Below are positions 14,956 through 64,000 of a stretch of 64,000 nt of DNA, in pieces; the first letter of the stretch is position 1, and every line of letters begins with the position of its first letter. The position numbers and the translations under genes were made by a program. Below the pieces are notes generated by a model. It worked only from the letters and a program-made list of their open reading frames with translations, searched no databases and was not told where the DNA came from. The DNA comes from Bryobacteraceae bacterium (GTDB lineage: Bacteria; Acidobacteriota; Terriglobia; Bryobacterales; Bryobacteraceae): contig JASHNT010000064.1 of assembly GCA_030041495.1 (NCBI GenBank), forward strand, positions 1 through 64,000, read 5' to 3'.

Positions 14956-16590
14956 GTGCAGACAGGTCAATTGTCGCCCGAGTTGGCGGACGCCGCCGAT
15001 GTACTGAGCGACCAGCTACGGGTGCACTTGCAGCGCTTGGCGGTTCTGCTGGAGCCGCACACTCAAAAGATCGAGCGCAAGTTCCTCAACCGCTTGCGGG
15101 CCCTGGGCTTCGAGCCTAAACAGCGGATGGCTCTTTCGGCCATCACTCCCGGCGCCGCTGCCACCATCCTGGCCAAAGGGCAGCCCGCTCTCGAGTTTAT
15201 TGAACAAGTGGAGTACAACGGCCGCCGTCTGGCCAAGCTGAACCTGCCTCCCAGCGCGATTCTAGAGGCTCTGGAAGAGTACGACCTGGTGCTCACACCC
15301 ACGCTGCAGGCTCTGCTGCCGGAAGAGGACGCCAATTTCCGCTGGGTTCGCGAGCAGCTTCACTTCTGCGTGATCCTTACGCTCAACAACGCCTACTATC
15401 AAGTGCGCGAGGCCGAAACACAAGCCTTCTATGAACTGTTCCGCATCGAGATGGAGGCGGCCAACCTGGAGGACCTGCTGCGCCGCTTCACCGAATCCCT
15501 GGTGCATGTCTGCCGCGCCAGCGCGGGCCGCTTGTACATGCTGAACGAGGACTCGACGGAGTGGGTGCTGAAAGCGGCCTCGCCGAAACTCGAGCCGTTC
15601 ACCGCGCCGAATCATCCGGGGCTGATCAAGAAGCTCTCGAAACAGCGTTTTTTGAACGGCAACGGCCACACAAATGGCAACGGTAATTCTCACGGCAATG
15701 GCAACAGCCAGGCGAGCGGCGTGATCCTGGACCAATCCTGGCAGGACCGCTTCGAGAGCTGCTGGTCCATTCCGCTGGCGGCCAACGGACGCACCGCCGG
15801 CGTCATGCAGTTCGGTTTTTCGAAGAGTTATGAATGGCTCCCGCGAGAGCAGGAACTGCTGGCCGCAGCCGCCGAACGCTGCCTGATGGCCGCGGAGAAG
15901 CAACGCCTGATGGAGGATCTGGCGCAGCGCGAAGAGCAGGTGCGGCGGTTGGCCGAGCACATGTTGCACGTGGAGGAAATCGAGCGCCGGCGCATCAGCC
16001 GTGAGCTGCATGACGAAGCCGGCCAGAGCTTGCTGTGCATCCGCCTACAGATGGAGCTGATCGAACAGGAGCTGCCCGAAACGGCCGGCGGCCGAGCGAA
16101 GCTGCGCGAGGCTCGCGATTTGACGGAGCGCACCATTCTGGAGATGCGGCGGTTGATCGCCGCCTTGAGCCCCGCGGTGCTGGAGCAACTGGGACTGGGA
16201 GCAGCCTTGCGGCAACTGGTGAACCGCTTCCAGCGCCTGCATCCCTGCCGTGTCCGCCTCCAGCTATCGAAAATGGGGGCCTTACCGCAGCAAATCGAGA
16301 TTATCACCTATCGCTTGGTGCAAGAATGCTTTAACAACATCGGGAAACACTCCGGGGCGACCCACGTAAATATTTCCCTAACCTCCGCCGATGGATGGTT
16401 AAAGCTTGCCGTGGAGGACAATGGCGTGGGCTTTCGCGTCGAGGAGGCCCTGGCTAAGCGGGACTCCTTCGGAATGTCCGGTATGCGCGAACGTGTAGCA
16501 CTATTGGGCGGCAAGTTCTATGTGGAGAGCAGGATGGAAGGCCCTAAACGGGGTGCAAAGATTTCCATAGAACTGCCGATAGCCAAGTAG
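14956..16590 (+). CDS. NarL-type sensor histidine kinase with GAF domain
   Basis: A 544-residue cytoplasmic kinase with a GTG start. Residues 1-160 are an all-helical domain with some likeness to globin-type sensor domains (weak). Residues about 175-320 form a GAF domain interrupted by an Asn/Gly-rich insertion at 234-251. The dimerisation/phosphoacceptor domain has the HisKA_3 box RRRISRELHDEAGQ with phosphoacceptor His352, and the HATPase domain shows QECFNNIGKHSGATH, VEDNGVGF and GMSGMRERVALLGG. No membrane helix is present, so the signal is cytoplasmic. Its partner is the LuxR-type response regulator 77 bases downstream. Confidence 0.85.
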   Translation: MQTGQLSPELADAADVLSDQLRVHLQRLAVLLEPHTQKIERKFLNRLRALGFEPKQRMALSAITPGAAATILAKGQPALEFIEQVEYNGRRLAKLNLPPSAILEALEEYDLVLTPTLQALLPEEDANFRWVREQLHFCVILTLNNAYYQVREAETQAFYELFRIEMEAANLEDLLRRFTESLVHVCRASAGRLYMLNEDSTEWVLKAASPKLEPFTAPNHPGLIKKLSKQRFLNGNGHTNGNGNSHGNGNSQASGVILDQSWQDRFESCWSIPLAANGRTAGVMQFGFSKSYEWLPREQELLAAAAERCLMAAEKQRLMEDLAQREEQVRRLAEHMLHVEEIERRRISRELHDEAGQSLLCIRLQMELIEQELPETAGGRAKLREARDLTERTILEMRRLIAALSPAVLEQLGLGAALRQLVNRFQRLHPCRVRLQLSKMGALPQQIEIITYRLVQECFNNIGKHSGATHVNISLTSADGWLKLAVEDNGVGFRVEEALAKRDSFGMSGMRERVALLGGKFYVESRMEGPKRGAKISIELPIAK

Positions 16591-39211: not shown

Positions 39212-40932
<1,721 letters not shown>

Positions 40933-57497: not shown

Positions 57498-57579
57498 CGA
57501 TGTCACAACTTGTCAGCCACTTCCATTATGTCGTGCGGCCGGCGGTAATTTGGCGCACTCGTGCTATTCTGGAGGAGTT

Positions 57580-57761
57580 CTGGTAGAGGAGCGAGGGCCA
57601 TGAGTAGCCCGGCGCGCGGTTCCGGCAAGCGCGGAGCGCTGGGAGAAAGGGGTATCCTCGCCGAAACCGGCGCGCGGCTTGCTGAGCGACCGGTTGGTGG
57701 AGACGGTTAACACCTTTTCACTGTCACTCGATTCTTGGTGGATTGAGTGGAGCGCTATCGG
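57580..57761 (+). ncRNA. Lysine riboswitch (L box) aptamer
   Basis: Several conserved L-box elements are present in order: P1 strand CTGGTAG (57580-57586) pairing with CTATCGG (57755-57761, two wobble pairs), AGAGGAGCG with ATGAGTAG, GAGAAAGGGG, CGCCGAA, and CACTGTC with GAGTGGAGCGCTATC. These match in order the pattern of known lysine riboswitches (AGAGGxGCG, GAAAGGxG, CGCCGAAG, CTGTC...GAGxGCTATC). The genes downstream make lysine and diaminopimelate, as expected for its ligand. On binding lysine it would lower expression of the operon. Confidence 0.88.
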
Positions 57762-57837
57762 GAAGCTTCGGCCCTCCCTGGCTGTCCTTACTAAGGACTG
57801 CGCTCCTCGTTCTCTTCCAGTAATATTGCGATGGCGT
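57762..57837 (+). promoter_or_regulatory. Expression platform of the lysine riboswitch
   Basis: The stretch between aptamer and start codon contains a hairpin GTCCTT-ACT-AAGGAC region (57784-57798) and CGCTCCTC (57801-57808), which is exactly complementary to GAGGAGCG inside the aptamer (57586-57593). These could form alternative structures. No U tract follows, so control of translation or Rho-dependent termination is more likely than an intrinsic terminator. Confidence 0.5.
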
Positions 57838-58845
57838 ATGAAGGTTTTTGAGCTGACACGCACGCTGGTGGACATCGATTCGGTCACACCGAACGAGGAG
57901 CAGGTCGGGGTATATCTGGCCGAGCATCTCTCGGCTCTTGCGAGTCGCACCGGCGGACGCGTGGAGCGAATCGAAGTGGAGCCGCACCGCTACAACGTAC
58001 TGGCGGCGTGGGGTCAGCCGGTGGTGACATTTTCGACGCACATGGACACGGTGCCTCCCTTTTTCGCGTCGTGCGAAGACGATGAGTGGATCTGGGGACG
58101 CGGCGCCTGCGATACCAAGGGCATCATCGCGTCTATGATCTGCGCGATCGAAGGTCTGCTGGCCGAGGGCACGCGCGGGCTGGCACTGCTGCTGGTGGTA
58201 GGCGAGGAGCGCAATAGCGCAGGGGCTCTAGCGGCGGCTCGCGACCATCGCGGCAGCCGGTTCCTCATCAATGGCGAGCCGACGGAGAACAGGCTGGCGC
58301 TGGGCTCGAAGGGCGCGCTGAGGTTCGAAATCACGGCCAAGGGACGGATGGCGCATTCCGCGTATCCGCATCTCGGCGAATCGGCGATCGAGAAATTACT
58401 CGACGTTCTGGAACGGGTACGGCGCATTCCTCTGGCTCGCGATCCGGTGCTGGGTGCGAGCACGCTCAACATCGGCTTAATTCAAGGCGGGCGCGCGCCG
58501 AATGTGATTCCCGATCACGCCTCGGCAGAGATCTTCGTCCGGCTGGTGGATTCCGGCGATTCCTTCCGCACGGCGATAGCGCAGACGGCTGAAGGTTTGG
58601 CTGACGCGCAGGAAGTGTTGTGCATCCCGGCGGTGCACCTGGGAGCTCTAGACGGGTTCAAAACCAGCGTGGTCTCCTTCACCACCGATATTCCGGCGTT
58701 TGGCGGCGCGTGGGGAGAGCCGTTTTTGATCGGTCCCGGCAGCATTCATTTTGCCCACACCGATGAAGAGCGCGTGCCGAAGGCCGAACTAATCGAGGCG
58801 ATCGAAATTTATAAGAATTTAGCGAGGCAATTGATTAAAAAATGA
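57838..58845 (+). CDS. dapE: M20-family peptidase, probable succinyl-diaminopimelate desuccinylase
   Basis: The ATG at 57838 is used; the open frame further upstream is riboswitch sequence. The 335-residue enzyme has the M20 zinc-site motifs [32 protein letters not shown] and [10 protein letters not shown], and a lid dimerisation domain between. M20 proteins include ArgE, DapE and carboxypeptidase G2; I choose DapE because it heads an operon of lysine-pathway genes with a lysine riboswitch, and dapD makes the succinylated precursor. Its sequence alone does not separate DapE from ArgE-like or LysK proteins. The asd start overlaps its stop (ATGA). Confidence 0.75.
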
Positions 58846-59909
58846 GCAATGAACGGATTCCGGTTGGGATTCTGGGCGCCACGGGAATGGTTGGCCAGGA
58901 GTTTGTTAGCTTTTTGCGCGACCACCCCTGGTTCGATTTGACCTGGCTCGGCGCAAGCGACCGCTCGGCCGGCAAGCCGTATCACGAGGCGACCGTGTGG
59001 AGACTGGGCGGTGAGACTCCGGCCTACGTGCGCGACATCGTGGTTTCGGAGTCCAAACCGGCGCATGGAACAAAGCACGCGCTCAAACTGGTGTTCTCGG
59101 CGATGGACGCGTCCGTGGCGACTGAAATCGAGCAGGCGTTCGCTTCCGCGGGGCACATTATCGTTTCCAATTCACGGAACCATCGCATGGACCCGGATGT
59201 CCCGCTGCTGGTGCCGGAGATCAACGCGGATCATCTGAAGCTCATTGATGTTCAACAGAAGCAGCGCGGCTGGAAGGGGCAGATTGTCACCAATCCGAAC
59301 TGTTCCACCGTCGTGCTGGTGATGGCTCTGGCGGCGTTGAAGCCGTTCGGCATCAAGCGCGTGATCGTGACCACCATGCAGGCGATCTCCGGCGCTGGGT
59401 ATCCCGGCGTCGCTTCCATGGACATCAATGCCAACGTGGTTCCGTTTATCGGCGGCGAGGAAGAGAAAATGCAGCAGGAAACGCAGAAAATCCTGGGCGA
59501 TTTTACCGGCGCAGCGATCGAGCCGCTGGCGGCCAAGGTGAGCGCGCACTGCAATCGCGTGCCGGTGGTGGACGGGCACACGATTACGGTTTCGGTGGAG
59601 CTGGAAAAGAAGCCATCGGAATCCGAGGTTCTGGCTGCGTGGCGAGCCTGGCGCGGGGAGCCGCAGCGCAAGGGACTGCCGAGCGCTCCGCCGTGCCCGG
59701 TGATCTACGTGCACGAAAAAGACCGTCCACAGCCGCGTAGAGATGTCGAGCGGGAAAACGGAATGGCCGTGTTTGTGGGGCGCTTGCGCAAATGCCCGGT
59801 GCTGGATTACAAGTTCGTCGCGCTGGGCCACAACACGGTGCGCGGGGCGGCGGGCGCCGCCGTGCTGAATGCGGAGGTCATGAAAGCCGAGGGGTATCTC
59901 GACCGATGA
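58842..59909 (+). CDS. asd: Aspartate-semialdehyde dehydrogenase
   Basis: A 355-residue enzyme that reduces aspartyl phosphate to aspartate semialdehyde with [14 protein letters not shown] at 11-19 is the nucleotide site, Cys154 in TNPNCSTVV is the nucleophile and AHCNRVPV holds the catalytic-site His/Arg region. It belongs to the archaeal/fungal-type branch ([13 protein letters not shown]). It overlaps dapE by four bases and lysC by four bases, so the three are strongly coupled. Confidence 0.93.
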
Positions 59910-61255
59910 TCGTGATGAAGTTCGGCGGCACGTCCGTTGAATCCGCGGAAGCGATCCGGCGTGTGGCGGGCATCGTGCGGGAGCGGCTGGCGCAGCGACC
60001 TGTTGTCGTCGTCTCGGCGATGGGTAAGACCACGAACAAGCTGCTTGAGATCGCCAACATGGCGGTTGGAGGCGACGCCAGGACGAGTGTGCTTGGCATC
60101 TTGGGAGTGCTGCGGGACTTTCACCTGGAGCAAGCCGCGGCATTGGGCATTGAGGATAGCCTCAACAAGGTGCCATTCGGGATCACGGCCACGTTCAAGG
60201 AGCTGAAGCAACTCATTGAGGCTCTAGTGGTGATGCGGGAGTTGACGCCTCGCCTGATCGACACGATCTCCGCATACGGCGAACGACTCTCGAGCCTAGT
60301 CGTTTCGGCAGCATTCAATCGGCTTGGCGTGCCATCCCTTCATTTCGATGCTCGCAGTGTGATCAAGACCGATGCTCGTCACACGCAGGCGGCGCCGTTA
60401 CTTAAGGAAACATACGAGCAGCTTCGGATTAGCGTCCCATCAGTGGTCCAGAGCGGCTCAGTCCCTGTGATGGGTGGATTTATCGGGTCGACGCTCGACG
60501 GAGTCACCACGACGCTGGGCCGCGGAGGGTCGGATTATTCGGCGTCGATTGTCGGAGCCGGCATCGGCGCGGAAGAAATTCAAATCTGGACGGACGTCGA
60601 CGGCATGCTGACGGCTGACCCGACCATTCTTCCCGGCGGTCATCGCGTGGAGACGTGCTCCTTCGCCGAGGCTGCGGAATTGGCGTATTTCGGCGCGAAG
60701 GTGCTGCATCCAGCCACGGTTCTTCCGGCGATCGAAAAGAATATCCCGGTACGGATTCTCAATTCGCGCCGGCCGGAGGTCGCAGGCACGCTGATCGTTT
60801 CCAACCCACCTCCATCAGACAAGCCGATCTGTTCCATCGCGTGCAAGCGCAACATCACGCTGGTCAATATCGTGAGTTCGCGCATGCTGATGACGCACGG
60901 TTTTTTGCGCCGTATCTTTGAAGTGTTCGACCGGCACCAGACCTCGGTCGACATGCTGGCGACGTCGGAAGTCAGCGTGTCGTTGACCGTGGACAACACA
61001 CGCGCGCTGGACGCGATTCGCAGCGAGATTGAAAGCTTCGCAGAGATGACGGCTGAAAAAGATCACGCGATTGTGTGCCTGGTGGGCGAAAACATTCGCG
61101 GCTGCCCGCAAGTTTCGGCGCGCGTGTTCTCGGCGCTCGGCGGCACCAAGACGCGCATGGTTTCGCAAGGGGCATCGCAGCTCAACATCAGCCTGGTAGT
61201 GGCTGCCGCAGACCTGGTGCGCGCGGTAGAATCGCTCCACAGTGAGTTTTTTTAG
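59906..61255 (+). CDS. lysC: Aspartate kinase
   Basis: The ATG at 59906 overlaps the asd stop (ATGA); the frame runs further upstream inside asd without likeness. The 449-residue enzyme phosphorylates aspartate. The opening [20 protein letters not shown], the aspartate site GRGGSDYSAS, ELAYFGAKVLHP and two C-terminal ACT domains (about 310-449) are all present. The ACT domains allow feedback by lysine or threonine, adding control to the riboswitch. It belongs to the LysC/AKIII-like, single-function type. Confidence 0.95.
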   Translation: MIVMKFGGTSVESAEAIRRVAGIVRERLAQRPVVVVSAMGKTTNKLLEIANMAVGGDARTSVLGILGVLRDFHLEQAAALGIEDSLNKVPFGITATFKELKQLIEALVVMRELTPRLIDTISAYGERLSSLVVSAAFNRLGVPSLHFDARSVIKTDARHTQAAPLLKETYEQLRISVPSVVQSGSVPVMGGFIGSTLDGVTTTLGRGGSDYSASIVGAGIGAEEIQIWTDVDGMLTADPTILPGGHRVETCSFAEAAELAYFGAKVLHPATVLPAIEKNIPVRILNSRRPEVAGTLIVSNPPPSDKPICSIACKRNITLVNIVSSRMLMTHGFLRRIFEVFDRHQTSVDMLATSEVSVSLTVDNTRALDAIRSEIESFAEMTAEKDHAIVCLVGENIRGCPQVSARVFSALGGTKTRMVSQGASQLNISLVVAAADLVRAVESLHSEFF

Positions 61256-61270: not shown

Positions 61271-61945
61271 TTGAAACTGGCTATTGTCGGGTACGGAAAG
61301 ATGGGACGCCTCATCGAACAGCTTGCGCCGGAGTACGGGTTCATAGTTCACGCCAAACTCGATTTGAATGACGACTTGCGCAAAGCCGGTGGCGCGGAGG
61401 TCGCGGTGGAATTTACCGCGCCGGGCGCGGTCGCGCGCAATGTGGAGACTCTCGCGGCGCTGGGAGTGCCGGTGGTGGTGGGCACTACGGGCTGGCCGGA
61501 ACAGATGGAACGGGTGCGCGCCGCCTCACAACGGTACCGCATCGGCGTGGTGTGGAGTCCGAATTTTTCGATCGGCGTGAACGTTTTTATTCGCGTGGTG
61601 AGGGAAGCGGCGAGACTACTCGAAAGCGAGCCACAATACGGCGCATGGGCGTGGGAAATTCACCATCACACCAAGAAGGACGCGCCTTCAGGAACGCTGT
61701 TGAAGCTGGTGGATGAAATGGAGGCGGCCGGGTATTCGCATCCGATTGACACCAGCGCAAATCGCGCCGGGGCGCATCCGGGCACGCATGAAATCGGCTT
61801 CGATTCCAGCGCGGACACCATCACGCTGCGGCATACGGCCCGGTCGCGCGAAGGTTTTGCGCGGGGCGCATTGAAAGCCGCGCAGTGGGTTCCCGGCAAG
61901 TTCGGAGTGTTCAAGTTCGAAGACGTTTTGTTCGGCAAGGAGTAG
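61271..61945 (+). CDS. dapB: 4-hydroxy-tetrahydrodipicolinate reductase
   Basis: A 224-residue enzyme with a TTG start and GGGAG about nine bases upstream. It has the Rossmann opening KLAIVGYGKMGRLI, GTTGW in the cofactor domain, and the substrate motif EIHHHTKKDAPSGT with the catalytic His and Lys. It is somewhat shorter than typical DapB proteins of 240-270 residues, a feature of some lineages. It reduces the DapA product using NAD(P)H. Confidence 0.93.
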   Translation: MKLAIVGYGKMGRLIEQLAPEYGFIVHAKLDLNDDLRKAGGAEVAVEFTAPGAVARNVETLAALGVPVVVGTTGWPEQMERVRAASQRYRIGVVWSPNFSIGVNVFIRVVREAARLLESEPQYGAWAWEIHHHTKKDAPSGTLLKLVDEMEAAGYSHPIDTSANRAGAHPGTHEIGFDSSADTITLRHTARSREGFARGALKAAQWVPGKFGVFKFEDVLFGKE

Positions 61946-61951
61946 AGACTT

Positions 61952-62854
61952 ATGTTCACGGGTTGCGGTACTGCGTTAGTTACTCCATTCCGTAGCGACG
62001 GCTCGCTGGATGAAGCGGCGCTGCGTAAGTTGGTCCGGCGGCAGATCGAAGCCGGCATCACTTTTCTTGCTCCGTGCGGGACCACGGGCGAAAGTCCGAC
62101 GTTGAAGCGCGCGGAGCATCTGCGTGTGGTGGAGATCACGCTGGAAGAAGCCAAGGGCAAAGTTCCGGTAGCGGCAGGAGCCGGAGGGTACAACACGGCG
62201 GAGGTGATCGAGCTGGCGCAGGAGCTGCTCAAGTTGGGCGCCGACGGCCTGCTTTCCGTGACGCCGTACTACAACAAGCCTACGCAGGAGGGTGTGTACC
62301 AGCACTACAAAGCGATTGCGAAGGCGGTGCCGCTGCCGGTCATCGTCTACAGCGTGCAGGGCCGCACGGGCTGCAACGTGGAGTCGGCGACAATGAAGCG
62401 CCTGGCGGAGATCGATAACATCGTGGCCATCAAAGAAGCCTCCGGCAACATCGGGCAGATGGCGCAGATGGCGCACCAGCTTCCGGAGCGCATCAATATT
62501 TTGTGCGGCGACGATGCGATCACCATTCCGCTGATTTCGCTCGGCGGGCGCGGGGTGATTTCAGTGGTATCGAATCAGGTTCCGGCGGAGATGACGCACC
62601 TCGCGCGGCTCGCGCTCGCGGGTGATTTCGCGGGAGCGCGCGCGATGCAACGGAAATGGCTGCCGCTGATGGAAGTGAATTTCGTCGAGTCGAATCCGAT
62701 TCCGGTCAAGGCGGCGATGGCGATCATGGGACTGCTGGAGCCGGTGTGGCGCTTGCCGCTGGTGCCTCCATCAGAAGCCAATCGCGCGAAGATCGAGGCG
62801 GTGCTGAAGGCCTGCGGCCTTCTCGCCGGGGCGCGGAGCACGCATGCAGACTGA
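61952..62854 (+). CDS. dapA: 4-hydroxy-tetrahydrodipicolinate synthase
   Basis: A 300-residue TIM-barrel aldolase. The Schiff-base Lys161 is in VAIKEASG, Tyr133 in VIVYSVQGRTG, and Thr44-Thr45 in CGTTGES, all at the positions usual for this family. It condenses pyruvate with aspartate semialdehyde, the first committed step to diaminopimelate. It starts six bases after dapB and overlaps dapD by 11 bases. Confidence 0.95.
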   Translation: MFTGCGTALVTPFRSDGSLDEAALRKLVRRQIEAGITFLAPCGTTGESPTLKRAEHLRVVEITLEEAKGKVPVAAGAGGYNTAEVIELAQELLKLGADGLLSVTPYYNKPTQEGVYQHYKAIAKAVPLPVIVYSVQGRTGCNVESATMKRLAEIDNIVAIKEASGNIGQMAQMAHQLPERINILCGDDAITIPLISLGGRGVISVVSNQVPAEMTHLARLALAGDFAGARAMQRKWLPLMEVNFVESNPIPVKAAMAIMGLLEPVWRLPLVPPSEANRAKIEAVLKACGLLAGARSTHAD

Positions 62855-63680
62855 GATCGAGCAGTTGTTCGAGAAGAAAGCGGGCACATTTACCGAACAG
62901 GATTTCGAGCTTTTTGCGCAATTTAAAGCCGCGCTGAACGCAGGCAAAGTGCGCTCCGCGGAGCCGGATGCCTCGGCGCGCAGCGGATGGCGCGTGAACA
63001 CCTGGGTAAAGAAAGGAATCCTGGCCGGATTGCGCATGGGGACGATGGTCAGCATGTCGCCCGATCCGATGCGGCTTCCGATGTTCGACAAGTCGACGTT
63101 CCCCACCAAACGCTTGGGGCCGGGCGACGGAGTCCGGATGGTGCCGGGAGGGTCGAGCGTCCGCGACGGCTGCTTTATCGGCAAAGGCGTGATCTGTATG
63201 CCTCCGATGTACATCAACGCAGGGAGTTGGGTGGGCGACAGTACGGTGGTCGATTCGCATGCGCTGATCGGGAGCTGCGCGCAGATCGGGGACAACTGCC
63301 ACATCTCGGCCGCGGCGCAGATTGGCGGCGTGCTGGAGCCGGTGGGGCTGCTGCCGGTGATTGTCGAAGACGAAGCCGTGGTCGGCGGCAACTGCGGAGT
63401 GTACGAAGGCACGGTGGTGAAGCGGCGCGCAGTGCTGGGCAGTGGAACGATTCTCACTCGCTCGACTCCGGTTTACGATATCGTCCGCGGCAAGGTGTAT
63501 CGCGCCACGGATGACGAGCCGCTGGTGATTCCGGAAGAGGCAGTGGTCGTCGCGGGCTCGCGCGCGATCTCGCATGGACCGGGGAAGGACTGGGGGATCT
63601 CGCTATACACGCCGGTGATCGTGAAGTATCGTGACAGCAAGACGGACTCGAGGGTGCAGTTGGAGGACTTCTTGCGCTGA
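62844..63680 (+). CDS. dapD: Tetrahydrodipicolinate N-succinyltransferase
   Basis: A 278-residue left-handed beta-helix acyltransferase with hexapeptide repeats (VRDGCFIGKGVICMPPMYINAGSWVGDSTVVDSHA shows several). The N-terminal helical part begins MQTEIEQLFEKKAGTF. DapD transfers succinyl from succinyl-CoA to tetrahydrodipicolinate, so this organism uses the succinylase route to diaminopimelate and needs DapE. It overlaps dapA by 11 bases and its stop shares one base with the start of a small membrane gene. Confidence 0.95.
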   Translation: MQTEIEQLFEKKAGTFTEQDFELFAQFKAALNAGKVRSAEPDASARSGWRVNTWVKKGILAGLRMGTMVSMSPDPMRLPMFDKSTFPTKRLGPGDGVRMVPGGSSVRDGCFIGKGVICMPPMYINAGSWVGDSTVVDSHALIGSCAQIGDNCHISAAAQIGGVLEPVGLLPVIVEDEAVVGGNCGVYEGTVVKRRAVLGSGTILTRSTPVYDIVRGKVYRATDDEPLVIPEEAVVVAGSRAISHGPGKDWGISLYTPVIVKYRDSKTDSRVQLEDFLR

Positions 63681-63784
63681 TGCGAGTCACTCCTATCTTT
63701 GCCGCGATTCTCACCGACGTGCAGTTCTGGGTGCCGCTAGCGGTGCTGGCCGGCGGCATCGCGCTGCTGGCGATTTTGAAGTGA
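63680..63784 (+). CDS. 34-residue membrane miniprotein coupled to dapD
   Basis: The start codon uses the last base of the dapD stop (TGATG). The product MRVTPIFAAILTDVQFWVPL continues with LAVLAGGIALLAILK to TGA: one membrane helix of about 20 residues with a basic end. Its stop overlaps the GTG start of the next gene (GTGA). The tight coupling on both sides argues that it is a real gene, probably a partner of the permease that follows. I know no family. Confidence 0.55.
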   Translation: MRVTPIFAAILTDVQFWVPLAVLAGGIALLAILK

Positions 63785-64000
63785 GCTCGGCGCGCGCACT
63801 GCACCGGCTAGGAGTGGCCTGCGGGCTTGCCGCCGGAGCTTGGCTGGGCATGGCGAACGCTCCGGCGAAGTTGGTCAGCGCCGGTTTCTCTCCGTACCTG
63901 ATTTCGCTGGGGATGGTGGCCGGCGTGTTTGTCGCGCGCTGGACCGTGCCGCCGCTGGTCAAGGGCAGCGCTTATGTGTGGCGTGATCTTGCCGAAAAAC
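63781..64000 (+). CDS. Partial multi-span membrane protein, permease-like (cut by window edge)
   Basis: Begins with a GTG at 63781 overlapping the stop of the miniprotein gene (GTGA) and runs open to the window edge. The 73 visible codons give SSARALHRLGVACGLAAGAW, LGMANAPAKLVSAGFSPYLI, SLGMVAGVFVARW and following. This is like the start of ureide-permease or glucose/ribose-porter (DMT superfamily) proteins with about ten helices. In the lysine operon it could move a pathway compound; this is inference. Confidence 0.55.
   Translation, partial: MSSARALHRLGVACGLAAGAWLGMANAPAKLVSAGFSPYLISLGMVAGVFVARWTVPPLVKGSAYVWRDLAEK

Follow-up and report, generated by a model that had tools for sequence, protein, structure and literature searches.

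Background

The closest described relative of the locus studied here is the lysine riboswitch, or L-box (Rfam RF00168). Our locus shares with that family a full-length aptamer, the conserved core and aspartate/DAP pathway genes downstream, and it differs in its expression platform, which has neither a terminator nor a Shine-Dalgarno (SD) match of 4 nt. For the riboswitch of E. coli lysC, effects on the initiation of translation, on cleavage by RNase E and on Rho-dependent termination have been reported (PMC11162775, which cites Ghosh et al. 2024 for the modulation of Rho), hence Rho control of a lysine riboswitch is not new as such. The missing SD match also sets our locus apart from lysC, and its output is here a prediction from sequence. 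As described in PMC5234074, Rho is recruited in E. coli thiC to a rut site, rich in C and poor in G, whose accessibility is set by the ligand. Our locus may resemble this TPP riboswitch in its C-rich, G-poor leader, for which ligand-dependent access is predicted; ligand and aptamer are different, and Rho has been demonstrated for thiC whereas we infer it here. Covariation between aptamer and platform has been derived for terminator-bearing lysine riboswitches, with an overlap that extends into the aptamer, as in E. coli lysC (PMC13273304); the string "Acidobacteri" is absent from the text of that paper.

Within the same phylum, Candidatus Solibacter usitatus is tabulated with a lysine riboswitch before asd-lysC (PMC5584792, Table 1). 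The pathway is the same and so is the order asd then lysC; our locus has an M20 gene before asd and an operon that continues to dapD, whereas the table gives asd-lysC alone. An acidobacterial lysine riboswitch as such is already known, and the present one is a further example. The riboswitch itself was to be expected; the value of the locus lies in the same aptamer being joined to clearly different platforms within one phylum, and relatives that have the same operon but no riboswitch make a further useful comparison.

Aptamer and promoter

The window, by which we mean the whole stretch of 64,000 nt that was analysed, holds the following elements ahead of the operon:

57562..57570, plus strand: extended -10-like element TGC TATTCT, a loose pattern shared with relatives
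57576..57765, plus strand: lysine riboswitch aptamer (L-box, RF00168), from the Rfam match and a 22-sequence alignment
57766..57837, plus strand: pyrimidine-rich expression platform without an SD match of 4 nt and without a U-tract terminator

A sequence-only reading of this DNA had proposed a lysine riboswitch at 57580-57837, a span that corresponds to aptamer plus platform and ends just before the start codon at 57838, and had suggested a search with the Rfam covariance model. This search bears the proposal out, as RF00168 matches 57576-57765 (+) over model positions 1-182, its full length, with 88 bits against a gathering cut-off of 30 bits (E 9.7e-22 over the window). The match is full-length and is the sole one at E 0.001 in the 6.1 Mb genome assembly, hence the aptamer is a secure member of the family; it is of the ordinary type, and L-lysine is its predicted ligand. 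The L-box core elements pointed out earlier, which surround the five-helix junction, are present in the window as TAGAGG.GCG, GCCGAA, CTGTCA and TGGAGCGCTA, and are conserved across the 22 aligned sequences. The earlier count of seven P1 pairs was about right; a fold with the Rfam aptamer pairs enforced gives nine, three of them G-U, between 57578-57586 and 57755-57763.

The aptamer begins 6 nt 3' of the extended -10-like box and ends 72 nt 5' of the DapE-like M20 gene. A putative transcription start would lie near 57577. Upstream of the aptamer P1 strand TAnnnT occurs within the final 32 nt at 68 of 70 loci and TGnTAnnnT at 45 of 70, and TTGA[CT] is found in the 60 nt upstream of the aptamer at 24 of 70; it should be noted that these are loose patterns and that the counts stand without a shuffled control. 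A consensus sigma-70 scan of the window reported no promoter. The first fold had a long arm starting at 57566; it was dropped because 57566-57576 coincides with or adjoins the -10-like box and is unlikely to be transcribed.

The operon and its gene products

Downstream of the platform lie seven co-directional genes, M20, asd, lysC, dapB, dapA, dapD and a transporter, which overlap one another or are separated by short gaps:

57838..58845, plus strand: M20 peptidase-family deacylase, probably DapE, 335 aa (PF01546 and PF07687 above cut-off)
58842..59909, plus strand: asd, aspartate-semialdehyde dehydrogenase of the asd_EA type (TIGR00978, 452.6 bits, cut-off 301.2)
59906..61255, plus strand: lysC, lysine-sensitive aspartokinase III type (NF006570, 479.4 bits, cut-off 455)
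61271..61945, plus strand: dapB, short, 224 aa (TIGR00036, 127.4 bits, cut-off 122)
61952..62854, plus strand: dapA (TIGR00674, 334 bits, cut-off 206.15)
62844..63680, plus strand: dapD, tetrahydrodipicolinate N-succinyltransferase (NF008808, 275 bits, cut-off 204)
63631..64000, plus strand, continuing to window-equivalent 65049: sugar-transport/EamA-like transporter (PF06800, 45.7 bits; PF00892, 32.3 bits)

The seventh gene ends at window-equivalent 65049 and the gene after it is on the minus strand, so of the eight-gene DAP/lysine operon proposed earlier the pathway content stands and the number becomes seven. The genes lysA, dapF and argJ are on other contigs of the genome.

The first gene had been called an M20 peptidase and taken for DapE rather than ArgE. 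The M20 assignment is confirmed by both Pfam matches. Among the 25 NCBIfam models listed of 37 matched there is none whose cut-off the protein reaches, and this holds for DapE and ArgE too; its best relatives among them are DapE/ArgE, the best DapE model being NF006365 with 137.5 bits against 289. Related solved structures include chains named DapE and others named acetylornithine deacetylase. Since the genome encodes an ArgJ that passes its cut-off (365 against 298 bits), arginine synthesis needs no separate ArgE, and this together with dapD in the operon favours DapE. The operon gene is therefore probably DapE rather than ArgE, as claimed, although a score below the DapE cut-off leaves the claim unproven. 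PF01546 has eight matches at E 0.001 in the genome, the operon gene included and two of the others under cut-off, hence a second DapE elsewhere is possible. DapD, of the succinylase branch, falls under the cut-off of the narrower TIGR00965 dapD model (156 against 375).

Some observations concern single slots of the operon. At the asd position 8 of 71 scored relatives (L033-L040) hold a gene 29-32% identical to the asd_EA of the window, this identity being the sole basis on which the divergent form was counted; by eye the copy at L035 11005-12039 resembles the asd_B type, and it looks like an in-place replacement among close relatives. The transporter (ORF at L002 7132-8550, start codon uncertain, PF06800 and PF00892 both above cut-off) overlaps the end of dapD and may be an amino-acid transporter controlled by lysine. 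With this gene as query, tblastn (plus-strand matches only, low-complexity filter on) gave no plus-strand match at E 1e-6 in the 80 named loci, many of whose contigs end early. In L035 a 180-aa ORF with a CxxCH motif (15785-16327) lies 3' of dapD, in the position of the window's transporter.

The aptamer sits upstream of the lysine biosynthesis genes M20-asd-lysC-dapB-dapA-dapD. What the operon encodes and the RF00168 match, with the direction taken from known lysine riboswitches, make it very probable that the mRNA begins with a lysine riboswitch acting in cis, which represses the DAP/lysine operon when lysine is abundant. For our best explanation as a whole we put the probability at roughly 0.85; the Rho step proposed below is graded separately.

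Occurrence and absence among relatives

The riboswitch was found in 33 of 61 related genomes: 21 of 23 in the genus and 31 of 37 in the family (own genome included in both), and outside the family in 1 of 2 genomes of f2, 0 of 18 of f3 and 1 of 4 of other families, in a survey whose filters were able to lose weak matches. In a phylum sample of 396 genomes 43 match at E 0.001, 42 of them above cut-off (own included), and the matches fall in 17 of 210 genera. A literature search found no paper pairing a lysine riboswitch with Bryobacter. The taxonomic novelty hinted at in the sequence-only reading, which named Firmicutes, gamma-proteobacteria and Thermotogae as the best-known hosts, is weakened by these 42 genomes and by the tabulated Solibacter case.

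The M20 gene lies directly 3' of the riboswitch at 29 of 30 loci, and in the remaining one the contig ends. The best 80 of 569 named M20 relatives are mostly titled as Bryobacteraceae, Bryobacterales, Solibacter or Acidobacteria metagenome-assembled genomes, by which the host is probably a bryobacteraceous acidobacterium, and 64 of these 80 have the aptamer in the 900 nt (less on short contigs) 5' of M20. A covariance model built here and run on 24 loci recovered 8 of 8 weaker riboswitches and 0 of 16 at the riboswitch-less loci. One of the latter, L073, has just 67 nt of upstream sequence and was excluded from the count of losses, leaving 15.

A quick M20 tree places 10 of these 15 loci in a single clade (SH-aLRT 99) and needs 4 changes to account for all of them, against 14.0 when the labels are shuffled. 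By eye, several of them have a TATCCT-like box directly 5' of a short C/U-rich leader and ATG; loci with a -10-like box adjoining the leader include L044, L046, L047, L060, L061, L066 and L080. It looks as if the riboswitch was lost between promoter and start codon in these relatives, a presumed direction of change. The L044 record is titled Arcobacter sp., yet its M20 falls among Bryobacteraceae in the tree, and it is probably a mislabelled bin.

Composition of the expression platform

The platform of the window has 24 C, 16 G, 23 T and 9 A among its 72 nt, and holds a hairpin at 57781-57801 and the segment CGCTCCTC at 57801-57808 (inverted repeats I5-I7). For comparison we used 73 distinct platforms, which remained of 93 records once 15 duplicates and 5 lacking the end motif had been removed, and 667 control ORF leaders, in each of which the first ATG of the ORF was taken as start codon. 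The mean pyrimidine fraction is 0.66 in the platforms and 0.48 in the controls. Pyrimidine tracts of at least 12 nt, one purine allowed, occur in 52 of the 73 platforms against 9.9% of the control leaders (9-18% of those with an upstream gap above 100 nt). C exceeds G in 72 of 72 platforms, by at least 0.15 in 62% of the 73.

SD sequences were scored as matches of at least 4 nt to TAAGGAGGTGA at -20..-5. The window locus (L001) has no such match, and 62 of the 73 platforms likewise have none; the 11 with a match compare with 47.5% of all control leaders and 32-37% of those with an upstream gap above 100 nt. No start codon stands in L024 and L110 where they align with the M20 start of the window, which makes the SD test unreliable for these two. 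Sequestration of an SD sequence was accordingly rejected as the output of the switch.

As a comparison inside the genus, TPP riboswitches were looked for and found in 0 of 26 genomes. At cobalamin riboswitch loci of the same genus a hairpin of the form ACGTYTCGA-GGG-ACGT, carrying a G-rich SD-like segment close 5' of the ATG, is present in 10 of 18 cases, that of our own genome included. The cobalamin leaders of relatives, taken as 60 nt including coding sequence, have a pyrimidine tract of at least 12 nt in 37% of 30 and a C-over-G excess of at least 0.15 in 0 of 30.

We suggest the following model. Binding of lysine would close P1 and the aptamer core, the platform would then be unable to pair with the purine-rich aptamer strands, and its C/U-rich, G-poor, SD-less tract would be single-stranded. 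Rho would load on the exposed tract and stop transcription before or within the first gene. With no lysine bound the tract would pair with the aptamer (in the relatives preferentially with the strand GGATGGAGCGC around J5/1), which would exclude Rho and allow expression of the operon. That lysine exposes the leader to Rho and so ends transcription is a tentative proposal, to which we give somewhat less than even odds. A rho gene above cut-off lies in the same window at 39218-40450 (-). It sits in a 609-aa open frame against a model of 415 positions, which may be an N-terminal extension or just upstream open frame.

Several features speak against Rho. The C-over-G excess in the window (24 against 16 of 72) is modest, some platforms have just 26 nt, which is short for a standalone rut site, and the statistics of 3' and 5' pairing given below are weak and come from non-independent relatives. 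Cobalamin leaders of relatives, too, carry long pyrimidine tracts more often than the control leaders, though without the C-over-G excess. A main point against Rho is the pyrimidine-rich stretch beside the ATG in riboswitch-less relatives. At -45..-15 the pyrimidine fraction is 0.70 with a riboswitch against 0.54 in the 15 riboswitch-less loci, and in the last 15 nt before the ATG the two are alike (0.56 and 0.60). Given this similar stretch, part of the pyrimidine tract may serve translation.

Predicted folding and the remaining modes of control

Full folds were computed for 69 loci with 40 shuffled platforms each; the set is the 73 less L094, which has a long platform, and 3 loci without the 5' motif. 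The stretch after the aptamer, folded alone, served as a stand-in for the lysine-bound state, in a folding model without tertiary or ligand energy. In this stand-in the platform becomes more open at 66 of 69 loci (0.34 to 0.52).

The best-surviving alternative to Rho is translational control of an SD-less start, in which the lysine-bound fold would bar the 30S subunit or ribosomal protein S1 from the C/U-rich site and mRNA decay would follow. The lack of an SD match of at least 4 nt at 62 of 73 loci is compatible with such a start, as are the pyrimidines just before the ATG of riboswitch-less relatives. In the window itself the AUG is less open in the stand-in, 0.26 against 0.43, and in the constrained fold, 0.49 against 0.61. 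Over the 69 loci, however, the region -20..+10 is more open at 54 and the AUG is unchanged on average (0.56 to 0.57), which is the opposite of occlusion; hence we regard this reading as rather unlikely.

Another alternative concerns the stem. The sequence-only reading had noted that CGCTCCTC is exactly complementary to GAGGAGCG in the aptamer, and had seen in this a switch between two structures. In the absence of lysine CGCTCCTC would pair with the P1/J1-2/P2 strand, extended by AGGGCC/GGCCCT around the hairpin at 57781-57801. As this concerns the stem only, it is compatible with Rho or with translational control. The 8-nt complement is indeed exact (57586-57593 with 57801-57808), the pairing is part of the minimum free energy fold predicted for the leader in the window, and only 1 of 40 shuffled platforms of this locus pairs as strongly on the 5' side, the 3'-side pairing of the window being 0. 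As evidence for a switch it does not hold up: of 2000 dinucleotide-shuffled platforms, 20% contain an aptamer complement of equal length (8.4% if the aptamer's first 30 nt are considered), a rival 7-nt complement joins 57800-57806 to the 3' side of the aptamer at 57749-57755, and the pairing is unconserved. Across the 69 loci 5'-strand pairing is not above shuffles: the mean is 8.2 pairs with real and 9.6 with shuffled platforms, a difference of the wrong sign (p 0.013), and 2 loci are at or below 0.05, the window one of them. We therefore rejected the complement as a conserved switch, and consider its use in the window unlikely.

Pairing with the 3' strand is above shuffles, with 7.3 against 5.4 pairs, 11 of 69 loci and a Wilcoxon p of 0.009. 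By duplex energy 10 of 72 loci are found for the 3' side and 6 of 69 for the 5' side (p 0.09), and these energies cannot separate the two because C/U-rich platforms pair with any G/A-rich strand. In the unliganded model P1 is absent with real platforms and hardly forms with shuffled ones, so base composition alone gives the predicted switch.

Lysine-dependent cleavage of the exposed leader by an RNase E-type enzyme has its precedent in the accounts of E. coli lysC in PMC5234074 and PMC11162775, and the leader is predicted to be more open in the bound-state stand-in; the leader is nevertheless C/U-rich, and we find this explanation improbable.

Terminators and the variety of platforms

Intrinsic transcription termination as in B. 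subtilis lysC, although used by lysine riboswitches of the acidobacterial families f27 (4 of 4), f76 (3 of 3) and f65 (1 of 1), 8 of 8 together, can be set aside as highly improbable in our locus, since the scan of the window platform gave none and a terminator is present in only 3 of the 73 platforms and absent in 70 (6 of 73 with one by another rule). These counts come from a rule widened to longer loops and one mismatch after it had missed 3 of 8 visible hairpins (L162, L164 and L167); it was applied to 210 nt in the other families, and in the 73 to the platform with a further 33 nt. By the same rule f91 has 1 of 1, with a weak tail, and f29 has 1 of 11; the other-family counts cover 20 of 45 matches.

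As most relatives have no terminator, no SD and no hidden AUG, what is left is Rho, an SD-independent translational mechanism or RNase cleavage. The expression platform may be a variant, as it looks unlike the textbook forms. That the Bryobacteraceae have a platform of their own, without terminator and SD and with a C/U-rich leader exposed to Rho as the main or only output, is a possibility we would still bet against. If it were true, the same aptamer would occur within one phylum with three or more platforms, namely intrinsic terminators, a short platform of SD type and a Rho-exposed C/U-rich leader. If the Rho step were true, it would give an example from outside E. coli of Rho control over a lysine riboswitch, with Rho acting independently of any SD-based translational switch.

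In L094 the M20 gene begins about 400 nt beyond the end of the aptamer, with an apparent small extra ORF and a strong hairpin with a T-rich tail. In family f29 (L171, L172, L175, L176 and L178) the lysine riboswitch is followed, by eye, by a short platform and then a frame like the M20 N-terminus, and several f29 platforms have, again by eye, a GAGG shortly 5' of the ATG.
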